Source: Oscillospiraceae bacterium (GTDB lineage Bacteria; Bacillota; Clostridia; Saccharofermentanales; Saccharofermentanaceae). Taken from it: DNA of 43,042 bases. Position 1 is the stretch's first letter, and every line of letters starts with the position of its first letter. The DNA lies in assembly GCA_902789515.1 (NCBI GenBank), contig CADAOK010000001.1:1-43042 (forward strand), read 5' to 3'. Below the pieces are notes generated by a model. The model searched no databases and had not been told where the DNA came from. It was given only the letters and a program-made list of their open reading frames with translations. Positions 26,000-42,992 of the stretch are shown piece by piece. Made by a program: the position numbers and the translations under genes.

Positions 26000-26168
26000 T
26001 TCCAGATTAACTCCCCGCTATGCAGGGACATATTCTGGAAATAACGCCAATACTGCCGGTATTTCCGGAAATCATTCCAGACTATGCAGGGACAAATTCT
26101 GGAAAAAACAGTGATTTGACTGATTATTCCAGATATTGTTCCAGACTATACGGGAACAGAATCTGGAA
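26000..26168. repeat. 64-bp tandem repeat with TTCCAGA/TCTGGAA arms (3 units)
   Basis: The core CTATGCAGGGACA begins at 26018 and 26082, with the variant CTATACGGGAACA at 26146: exactly 64 bp apart. Each unit ends in TCTGGAA (26034, 26098, 26162) and has the inverse arm TTCCAGA upstream (26000; 26075; 26127 and 26139), so each can fold into a hairpin. Spacers between units are not conserved except for degenerate TTCC...A blocks. It fills the 276-bp gap between the rubrerythrin start and the glycoside phosphorylase stop. No ORF of its own. Confidence 0.85.
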
Positions 26169-35743: not shown

Positions 35744-37429
35744 TTATTCAATAGTAGGTATTACCTTGAGAAGTTCCTCGGGAGTCGTCTCACCCTGACG
35801 GACAAGATCACGGCCGTTCTCGATCATTGATGTGAATCCTGTATTGGCAAGGAAGTGTCTGAGTTCCGAACCATTCTTGCCGGCACTTATCGCATCTCTG
35901 AGTTCCGCAGTAACCTGCATGATCTCGAATACGCCGGTCCTTCCTCTGAAACCGGACCCAAAGCATCTCTCACATCCCTTGCCCTTGTAATATACCGTAC
36001 CGTCATCCTCCATTCCGATAAGAGAAAGAGTAAACGGATCCGGTTTTACGGGCATCTTGCAGTTCGGGCAGACCTTTCTGACAAGTCTCTGCGAGATAAC
36101 GCCTCTCAAAGAACCCGCGATAAGATAGGGCTCTGCCCCCATATCACGGAGTCTGTCGATAGCGGATACCGCATCCTCAGTGTGGATAGTCGAGAGCACG
36201 AGGTGTCCTGTCATGGCAGCTCTCATCGCAATCTCGGCCGTCTCGCCGTCACGGATCTCTCCGACACAGATGATATCCGGGTCCTGCCTGAGGCATGCCC
36301 TCAGGGCGCTGGCAAATGTAAGTCCGGTCTTCTCGTTGATGGCAACCTGCGTAACGCCAGCAATCTGGAACTCGACCGGGTCTTCGAGCGAGATGATATT
36401 GACCGTCTCGCTGATAAGCTCATGGATCATGGTATAGAGCGTCGATGTCTTACCTGAACCCGTAGGACCAACGATAAGGATGATTCCCGCAGAGTTCTTC
36501 AGGATCCTGTCGAAACGCTCATTATCCTTGTCAGTAATGCCGATGGCGTGGCGGTTCAGAGTGCTCTGCTCACGCATCAGTATTCTTATAACCACCTTCT
36601 CACCGAAGATGGTGGGAAGCGTATTTAGTCTCAAGTCAATCTGTGTTCCGTCCTGACGCTTGATTACGGCACGTCCGTCCTGAGGGATACGTCTCTCGGT
36701 AATGTTCATGCCCGCCATGACCTTAAGTCTGGAGATAACAGAATTCTGGAGTTCTCTCGGAACTTCCATCATGGTATTGAGTCTGCCATCGACTCTGATC
36801 CTGACCTTCATCTCCTTCTCATAAGGCTCGAAGTGTATATCTGAAGCCTTCTCAGCTATGGCTCTCTCGATAAGTGAATTGACGAGCTTGACTGTAGGAG
36901 CAGCAGTCTCGTCGTCATTTGCAGCCATCTCATCACTTAGATCATCTACAGTGATAGTAGTCTGTTCTTCCTTCATCTGCTCGATGGCGCGCGCTGCGCC
37001 TTCGTTCTCATAGAGTACAGACAGAGCTCTCGTGATGGCATCGTAGTAAGCGATCATCGGTATGACACGGCGTCCTGTCATCTGGCGCACAGCTTCGACC
37101 GCACGGAAGTTCATCGGATCTTCCATTGCGATATAGAGGTTATTACCTTCAACCTTTACCGGGATAAGCCTGTATGTACGTGCGGTATCCTTTGGAACGA
37201 TCTCAACTAAAGTCGGGTCGATGCTTGCCTTGTTAAGGTCTATGAACTCAACACCTAACTGCATCCTTAGGGTCTCAACGAACTGTTTCTCTGAGATTAT
37301 CCCCTCGTCGATAAGATATGTACCGAGTCTCTTACCTGTTTCCTTCTGACCTGCAAGTGCCGCCTGCAGCTGTTCTTCAGTAATTGCGCCGGAATCTACC
37401 AGCATCTCACCCAATCTTTTGTTCTTCAC
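35744..37429 (-). CDS. pilB: PilB/GspE type IV pilus assembly ATPase with MshEN domain
   Basis: A 561-residue hexameric ATPase driving pilus extension. The N-terminus holds two 24-residue motifs RLGxxLxxxGxIxxxxxxxxLxxQ (residues 5-28 and 34-57) separated by exactly five residues, the layout of the c-di-GMP-binding MshEN domain. The catalytic core has Walker A GPTGSGKT at 321-328, the Walker B region DPDIICVGEIRD, and the His box LSTIHTEDAVSAIDRL. A zinc site is C454, C457, C486, C489. It starts with GTG, 11 nt after AAGGAG. No PilT retraction ATPase is in the window. Confidence 0.95.
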   Translation of the reverse strand: MKNKRLGEMLVDSGAITEEQLQAALAGQKETGKRLGTYLIDEGIISEKQFVETLRMQLGVEFIDLNKASIDPTLVEIVPKDTARTYRLIPVKVEGNNLYIAMEDPMNFRAVEAVRQMTGRRVIPMIAYYDAITRALSVLYENEGAARAIEQMKEEQTTITVDDLSDEMAANDDETAAPTVKLVNSLIERAIAEKASDIHFEPYEKEMKVRIRVDGRLNTMMEVPRELQNSVISRLKVMAGMNITERRIPQDGRAVIKRQDGTQIDLRLNTLPTIFGEKVVIRILMREQSTLNRHAIGITDKDNERFDRILKNSAGIILIVGPTGSGKTSTLYTMIHELISETVNIISLEDPVEFQIAGVTQVAINEKTGLTFASALRACLRQDPDIICVGEIRDGETAEIAMRAAMTGHLVLSTIHTEDAVSAIDRLRDMGAEPYLIAGSLRGVISQRLVRKVCPNCKMPVKPDPFTLSLIGMEDDGTVYYKGKGCERCFGSGFRGRTGVFEIMQVTAELRDAISAGKNGSELRHFLANTGFTSMIENGRDLVRQGETTPEELLKVIPTIE

Positions 37430-37453
37430 GTCCGTTTCCGCTCCTTAAATATG

Positions 37454-38263
37454 TTATGGATTGCTTGTATTTGTATTAGGCAACAGTGTGTCAGGACACA
37501 CTTCGACATATTGCTTCATGATTACTTCTTTTGTATTCGCATCGATAACATAAACCCAAAACTTGAATAATTTATCAGTATTGTCCCACGTAATAGCCTC
37601 CGCGGTCATTTTCCCTTTCGCATAAGTTTGTCCAACTTCCAAAGATCCATCGCCGACTATCGAGTACATATCTGTTCCCTGCATAATATTTTGGGCAATA
37701 ATATACTTTCTGTTGGAATAATCCTTAGTAGAAAAAAACTTGGAAATATCTATACCTGAAGTCGGATCGGCAAGTGTGGGAGCAGCAACATTGGAGTACT
37801 TATATCCAACGCAGATACCAAGATTATTCTTATCTTTCGATTCATTGGTTGCGTTCCAATATTGTATCAAGGGAGGATTACAGGTCGTTGTTGCAACTGT
37901 ATTGTAAGAGTTATCACGGATTATTACATTAATGTATCTGGATGCACCGGAATCCAATTGAAAGAAGTCTGAACCCATAGCAGATGTTGAATTTGTCATT
38001 GGATAGTATTCATGTGAACAATCCATAGTATGGGGGTCCGTAACACCATTAAGATCTTTGCGGAGATAATTCACTGTTGCGATCATAATCATCTCAGCCT
38101 GGTTCTGCCTCTCTATGATGTCCCTTGTATGATTCAGCACAACAAGACCACCGATTGCAGTAGTTGCAACAAAGGCCATAAGGCCAACCGATATCAACAG
38201 TTCAGAAAGAGTAAAACCCTTTCTGCTGATATTCTTATTTCTGTTGCTGTTCATTAGTCGCAT
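37454..38263 (-). CDS. PilW-like minor pilin (type IV prepilin)
   Basis: A 269-residue prepilin. The leader ends NISRKG and is followed by FTLSELLISVGLMAFVATTAIGGLVVL, so PilD cleavage should fall after Gly16 with Glu at +5. The rest is a large globular domain without recognisable motifs, as expected for PilW/PulJ-like minor pilins that sit at the pilus tip. It lies between the other minor pilins and pilB. Confidence 0.88.
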   Translation of the reverse strand: MRLMNSNRNKNISRKGFTLSELLISVGLMAFVATTAIGGLVVLNHTRDIIERQNQAEMIMIATVNYLRKDLNGVTDPHTMDCSHEYYPMTNSTSAMGSDFFQLDSGASRYINVIIRDNSYNTVATTTCNPPLIQYWNATNESKDKNNLGICVGYKYSNVAAPTLADPTSGIDISKFFSTKDYSNRKYIIAQNIMQGTDMYSIVGDGSLEVGQTYAKGKMTAEAITWDNTDKLFKFWVYVIDANTKEVIMKQYVEVCPDTLLPNTNTSNP

Positions 38264-42365: not shown

Positions 42366-42842
42366 TCAGATGAAAAGCCAGATAAGGCAGCCAATCTCAA
42401 ATGCTATCAGGAGGCAGACAGCAGCAGTATAGATGCCAAGCCGGCCGAGATCGTTGAAGAATTCAGGGTTGGTTGCCTTAAATGCAGATTTGGCATGCTC
42501 GGGGCTGGCCGCTCCCGCCATCGGGTCGGAATTGGTCATTATCTTGTGCCCGCCTTCGGTGTAATCGTTATCGGGATCGTAATAGCGCGTAACATAGGCA
42601 TTGCCGGTGACCTTGCCGGTCTTCCTGGGTTTGACGTCACCGCGGAGCAGAGCCTCGTCCTCGAACGGCTGCATTGCGTTGGCAGATGTTTCGGTGAAGA
42701 CGGTGCGGTCATCTGCGGGGATCGTGTCCCCTTCCCTGTAATGGGTATGGATAGTGAACGCGGGATCCTTTGTATTGGGGACCTTGCGTCCTGGATCCAG
42801 CGTACCGGGTTTCTCAAAAAGCGGTAAGTCTTTCTGTGCCAT
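42366..42842 (-). CDS. Small tail-anchored membrane protein of unknown function
   Basis: A 158-residue protein I do not recognise. It is polar for most of its length (MAQKDLPLFEKPGTLDPGRK, TNSDPMAGAASPEHAKSAF) and ends in one membrane segment at the very C-terminus (IYTAAVCLLIAFEIGCLIWLFI), so it should be held in the membrane facing the cytoplasm. The ATG at 42842 is preferred over the open frame's 42869, as the latter includes a TATAAT. It has no ribosome site; leaderless translation is possible. Its gene converges on the permease gene across a shared terminator. Confidence 0.7.
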   Translation of the reverse strand: MAQKDLPLFEKPGTLDPGRKVPNTKDPAFTIHTHYREGDTIPADDRTVFTETSANAMQPFEDEALLRGDVKPRKTGKVTGNAYVTRYYDPDNDYTEGGHKIMTNSDPMAGAASPEHAKSAFKATNPEFFNDLGRLGIYTAAVCLLIAFEIGCLIWLFI

Positions 42843-42848
42843 AGGTGG

Positions 42849-42854
42849 ATTATA
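42849..42854 (-). promoter_or_regulatory. -10 box adjoining the ATG at 42842
   Basis: Perfect TATAAT on the minus strand ends 6 bp before the ATG. No clear -35 at the ideal distance (AGCAAG at 17 bp; CTGAGC at 20 bp). No ribosome site, so the message may be leaderless. Confidence 0.5.
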
Positions 42855-42880: not shown

Positions 42881-42992
42881 TCTACCTTTTTTGTCACCAA
42901 TCTCCCGAAAATGGTAGCACTTTCGGTAGAAATAGGCCTAAATCTACCATTTATGTCACCAAAACTCCCAAAATGGTGACACCGCCGGTAGC
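42881..42992. repeat. 62-bp tandem repeat with double dyad (2 units)
   Basis: Two 50-bp units start at 42881 and 42943. Each reads TCTACC, N6, GTCACC, N14, GGTRRC, then GGTAGM: outer arms TCTACC/GGTAGA (42881/42925) or TCTACC/GGTAGC (42943/42987), inner arms GTCACC/GGTAGC (42893/42913) or GTCACC/GGTGAC (42955/42975). The 12-bp joint between units contains the palindrome TAGGCCTA. AAAATGGT occurs in both. It lies in a 200-bp gap without genes at the window's right edge. Confidence 0.85.

Follow-up and report, generated by a model that had tools for sequence, protein, structure and literature searches.

In the RAYT-REPIN (TnpA-REP) systems, dispersed intergenic palindromic units (REP, BIME), which are often paired, are accompanied by a dedicated genome-resident DNA enzyme, and the repeats differ by lineage (PMC8266576, PMC2817692). 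Part of what defines a REP is that its palindrome carries a conserved tetranucleotide of GTAG type at its foot (PMC8266576). The repeat described here is located in the window, a stretch of 43,042 nucleotides that constitutes the entire contig C1 of a draft genome (G000; 1.93 Mb, 163 contigs, 75.5% complete); the right edge of the window, at which a first-pass annotation had placed a 62-bp repeat, is therefore the end of the contig. This repeat is probably a solo member of a family of recognition arrays dispersed between genes, each paired with a nuclease.

The array comprises two units. Unit 1 (42881..42930, plus strand, 50 bp) carries four sites: TCTACC (42881-42886), TGTCACC (42892-42898), the diverged GGTAGCA (42913-42919) and GGTAGA (42925-42930). 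The four sites of unit 2 (42943..42992, plus strand) are TCTACC (42943-42948), TGTCACC (42954-42960), GGTGACA (42975-42981) and GGTAGC (42987-42992). The repeat is real; its units are spaced at exactly 62 bp, and between them lies the 12-bp joint AATAGGCCTAAA (42931..42942, no strand assigned), as had been claimed. The joint is of the type W4-GGCC-W4 and is centred on GGCC; its 12-bp length is kept in the other copies of the source genome, and a GGCC-like centre is seen in other species as well. Each unit has the layout A-N5-B-N14-B'-N5-A'. The two pairs of arms ascribed earlier to each unit hold for six of the eight arms; in unit 1 the right inner arm reads GGTAGC(A) instead of GGTGAC, and in unit 2 the right outer arm reads GGTAGC instead of GGTAGA. 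The intervals, described as varying, do so in sequence, but their lengths are fixed at 5, 14, 5 and 12 bp, also in the copies on contigs C67 and C105 discussed below. The window has two matches to the pattern TCTACC-N(0-12)-GTCACC, versus 0.02 expected from shuffled sequences.

An intrinsic-terminator-like sequence that belongs to a gene beyond the contig end (43010..43042, minus strand) is identical at 33 of 33 positions in the relative G006, which places the array after a terminator. The array lies upstream of a TATAAT-like -10 box (42849..42854, minus strand), read from the sequence and conserved in the relatives G006 and G088, which serves the downstream gene of a 158-residue protein (42366..42842, minus strand) that has no Pfam family and was used as the anchor of the orthologous locus. 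With its position between terminator and promoter the array is probably not transcribed. The array stems themselves are not followed by a U tract, as a terminator or attenuator would be, and the terminator and promoter that flank the array are separate from it. Searches of the window gave no Rfam match and no tRNA or tmRNA. A second array in the window (26000..26168, plus strand), located between two minus-strand genes, has the word TTCCAGA/TCTGGAA in three units with an exact 64-bp period and an A-B offset of 12; no cognate nuclease for this word was identified in the G000 assembly. The window also contains type II/IV secretion ATPase and N-methylated pilin-like genes (35744-38263), an ordinary pilus/secretion locus.

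The arm order recurs elsewhere in the source genome, so the condition that the first-pass annotation had named as refuting, the lack of a second such locus, does not apply. At C67:10813-10924 and C105:4817-4928 the arms, their order and their spacing are all identical to those of the window array, and C22:228-339 is a fourth, weaker locus of the same word; the reversed-pattern control gave no match. The TGTCACC-N14-GGTGACA cores are all 28 bp. Among the copies the arms and all distances are conserved and the spacer sequences are not. The C105 copy, located upstream of hisS, likewise follows a terminator and precedes a promoter. A second array family of this genome has the word TCGCTG and a 50-bp period; it occurs beside a nuclease gene on contig C26 (C26:10746), and C26:6575 and C105:2997 are solo arrays of this family. 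Contigs C60 (L139 2256-2596) and C75 (L141 2316-2570) each have a further nuclease paralog, adjoined by nearly identical 63-64-bp tandem repeats whose layout differs somewhat.

Exact or 3-mismatch patterns of the window array gave no match in relatives of the genus because the word differs between species, and the wider family was revealed only by a covariance model. Built on three G000 copies, this model matched in 38 of the 85 genomes of the genus, and the elements so identified have the geometry of the window array and different arm sequences. The arms vary freely, with TTCACC, GTCTCC, TCATCA and GTAAAC among the examples. A motif-free geometry scan for eight sites of a single 6-bp word X yielded dozens of arrays scoring 37-48, where shuffled sequence scores up to 35; repetitive coding sequence can also exceed the threshold, so the counts carry some false positives. 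About 25 words X were seen, with several per genome and sometimes adjacent to one another (L102, L087, L068). The general formula is X-N6-X-N14-X'-N6-X', with X a word of ~6 bp, repeated at 62 bp. Scored independently of each other, A and B agree at 4.24 of 6 letters within arrays versus 1.88 between arrays (permutation p < 1e-4), and their offset is 11-12 bp, with one case of 13, such that A and B are one word repeated one helical turn apart. When the period was left free (about 44-75 bp) for 49 nuclease-side arrays, it was 60-63 bp in 44, 50 bp in one and 73-74 bp in four, and these differences correspond to steps of about one helical turn. The recurrence of the same word together with helical-turn periods suggests that proteins occupy multiple sites of the array on duplex DNA, and speaks against an RNA switch. 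The earlier suggestion of an array for a dimeric protein thus gains support from one word in a fixed > > < < order with helical-turn phasing, and further from the covariation of the word with the presumed recognition sheet of a neighboring protein family. Folded recombination sites of the attC type were rejected, A and B being direct and not inverted repeats.

An exact-pattern scan of GTDB genomes gave a single match, the perfect hairpin at L016 11-48 in a MAG labelled Rickettsia typhi; it was judged an unrelated chance match and not a member of the family. In G064, identical tandem 62-bp units reach the ends of contigs C2 and C31 (L057 1-176, L062 1001-1112), which suggests that arrays are amplified locally and that assemblies break there. 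In G096 (C2:168-489; L042), tandem repeats with a period of 82 bp match the model weakly and are possibly longer by about two turns.

When the genes surrounding the arrays were clustered, a single recurrent family adjoining them emerged, with a length of ~250 residues; among the clusters inspected, no other recurrent partner was found. The family has no Pfam or NCBIfam match and weak matches to PHROG endonucleases, and it is previously unnamed. It is present in 84 of the 85 genus genomes with 1-15 genes each and in related genera of the same taxonomic family, and is scarce elsewhere in the order. No relatives were found in viral contigs and plasmids, and phages gave two weak matches to the nuclease domain. 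Besides a nuclease domain, the AF2 model (pLDDT 86.8) predicts a first helix, a three-stranded sheet (residues 28-49) and a long helix. The best fold matches of the predicted nuclease domain (VIA-align, Z scores of 9.0-7.1) were I-Bth0305I (9.0), Bax1 (8.3), TnsA (8.0) and Vsr (7.1), together with ngo0050; the search covered the N-terminal domain sparsely. Residues S131, E134, D164 and E179 are invariant or nearly so. With its core fold and acidic, putatively catalytic residues, the family looks like a member of the PD-(D/E)XK/Vsr-like superfamily, as judged from the predicted structure. The nuclease domain also matches the C-terminal part of the PADLOC candidate defence proteins PDC-S68 (E 2e-14).

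The association was examined at 95 nuclease loci chosen by the protein alone. An array lies within 350 bp of the gene at 63 of them (71 matches in 65 kb), versus 2 matches in farther flanks about twice as long (123 kb). At the scan threshold used, about one third of the loci have no array; their arrays may be absent, decayed or of another geometry. These are rigid double-dyad arrays of one ~6-bp word adjacent to nuclease genes, and in a given genome each nuclease has one word. Solo arrays occur near many unrelated genes, and their words agree with nuclease-adjacent words of their own genome at 5.5 letters versus 4.1 for other genomes (Wilcoxon p = 4e-6). The near-complete G091, the sole genus genome without the nuclease, has no arrays in 398 kb, compared with 10 intergenic-like matches in an equal length (398 kb) of G005, a genome with ten nucleases; the comparison involves a single nuclease-free genome, and composition could contribute to the difference. 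On C67 the array and the nuclease were each found independently of the other. The nuclease gene, C67:9999-10731, is 82 bp from the copy of the window array and is presumed to encode the partner of that array. It is interrupted by tandem duplications of about 48 and 34 bp (L242 9950-10050, 10440-10505), which represent either real inactivation or an assembly error; the window array may therefore now be a relic. At three other loci (L111, L131, L106) arrays of the same word flank the nuclease on both sides to form an element-like unit of ~1.2 kb.

At many nuclease loci synteny is kept between species and the flanks are 80-94% identical, yet the alignments break at the N-terminal part of the nuclease and at the array. 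The word changes fast, in step with a single small part of the protein. With nuclease-domain identity corrected for, identity in the sheet (residues 27-51) among related nucleases follows the similarity of their words (partial r 0.16, p 0.003), a weak effect; the first helix (p 0.27) and the long helix (p 0.22) do not track the word, and over all nuclease pairs the sheet-word correlation is not significant (p 0.14).

Arrays also turn over at orthologous sites. At the site of the window array, the promoter and terminator are the same in G006 and G088, but the dyad-rich DNA that separates them is a different one, of similar length. In G088 this DNA resembles, by eye, an array of ~50-bp period with another word; neither sequence is clearly above the scan background, and neither relative has a clean empty site that would show insertion there. 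Upstream of hisS, G000 has the window-type array, G088 has a different array, and G006 and several other genomes have none, which indicates that arrays are gained, lost or replaced at a given position. Neither target-site duplications nor the exact junctions of an insertion could be made out, at hisS (G006 versus G088) or elsewhere.

Together, these observations suggest a fast-changing enzyme-and-target system scattered between genes. From them we infer that the nuclease binds, cuts and moves its arrays. The variable N-terminal three-stranded sheet would bind word X, and four (or eight) subunits would assemble on one face of the DNA with their PD-(D/E)XK-type domains positioned at the dyad centres. 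Between genes, cutting and repair at these centres could then bring about the spread, turnover and replacement of arrays, array and nuclease acting as a selfish or domesticated pair in the manner of REPIN and RAYT. That this is a new kind of genome-resident pair, in which a single-gene nuclease family with a hypervariable beta-sheet as its reading head acts on dispersed eight-site arrays, each change of that head being followed by a new word in the arrays, and several orthogonal pairs coexist per genome, is a proposal on which the balance is even.

Alternatively, the arrays could have a regulatory role, as operators through which a nuclease of defence or toxin-like type represses itself by binding, with solo arrays as additional operators or decoys that silence it and no spreading. 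The resemblance of the nuclease domain to PDC-S68 and the several paralogs per genome fit such a role, and 20 of 49 scored arrays are 5' of the nuclease gene; however, the other 29 are 3' of it, solo arrays are spread over many unrelated genes, and the presence and type of array at one site change quickly. This explanation is unlikely, although it keeps an appreciable chance. Somewhat less likely again is that the arrays bind another host protein, such as a nucleoid protein, a topoisomerase or a transcription factor, and that the nuclease merely settles nearby. The helically phased alternation of A/T and G/C and the ~62-bp repeats would suit DNA wrapping, and the arrays are located between terminators and promoters, but a host protein predicts neither one word per nuclease and the sheet-word link nor the lack of arrays in the genome without the nuclease.

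The first-pass annotation had also considered an RNA that switches between within-unit and between-unit hairpins. Both strands do fold better than shuffled sequences (z -3.4 and -4.9), but this is expected of any double dyad. An RNA stem requires neither the identity of A and B nor period steps of one turn, and with no Rfam match and an array placed between terminator and promoter an RNA element is very improbable. The least credible alternative is an ordinary REP/BIME element mobilised by a RAYT: the units are palindromic, intergenic, tandem and inverted, and the repeats are indeed accompanied by a dedicated DNA enzyme, but the G000 assembly (75.5% complete) has no Y1_Tnp gene (0 matches), the window word has 4 loci in place of the >100 copies per genome of a REP/BIME, no constant GTAG tag exists family-wide, and the partner is of a different fold, resembling a PD-(D/E)XK/Vsr-type nuclease.

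If the nuclease-array pairing is correct, it constitutes a naturally repeated experiment on the specificity change of a DNA-binding domain, with tens of nuclease-word pairs at constant geometry and a recognition element consisting of one ~25-residue sheet. The coexisting pairs would be an evolutionary record of changing protein-DNA specificity, and an unrelated enzyme class would join the RAYT-REPIN way of life. It could also account for a class of intergenic repeats missed by repeat finders based on sequence, because the copies have spacing and a word in common but not their overall sequence. A limited search of the literature found no description of such a nuclease-array pair.

Several known systems share individual features with these pairs. 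As in MITEs and other small dispersed repeats, the arrays are short, intergenic, non-coding and lineage-specific, but what links their copies is words and spacing, not overall sequence, and no terminal duplications were resolved. The fast change of DNA specificity through one domain at conserved loci recalls TRD swapping in HsdS of restriction-modification systems, whereas here no methyltransferase was noted and the targets are clustered within the own genome. TnsA has a similar nuclease-domain fold (Z score of 8.0) and Tn7 has multi-site terminal arrays; unlike Tn7, the recurrent neighbors include no transposase partner and the array sites are dyads. The nearest enzymes appear to be the Vsr-like (EDxHD)/PD-(D/E)XK homing endonucleases, for example I-Bth0305I, with the same general predicted fold (Z score of 9.0) and a small free-standing gene. 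In contrast to these, the nuclease has a hypervariable N-terminal sheet, its presumed targets are eight-site arrays scattered over the chromosome, and its gene does not seem to interrupt them. Where arrays abut the nuclease gene, they remain intact. RAYT-REPIN is nearest in way of life, with dispersed intergenic palindromic units and a dedicated DNA enzyme, the repeats differing by lineage. Nonetheless, the array partner resembles a PD-(D/E)XK/Vsr-type nuclease and not an HUH transposase, and the arrays contain 4-8 copies of one word at fixed helical spacing, lack the GTAG tag and occur in few copies with several nuclease-word pairs per genome. By this analogy, the array-nuclease pair would work like RAYT-REPIN without being a member of it.
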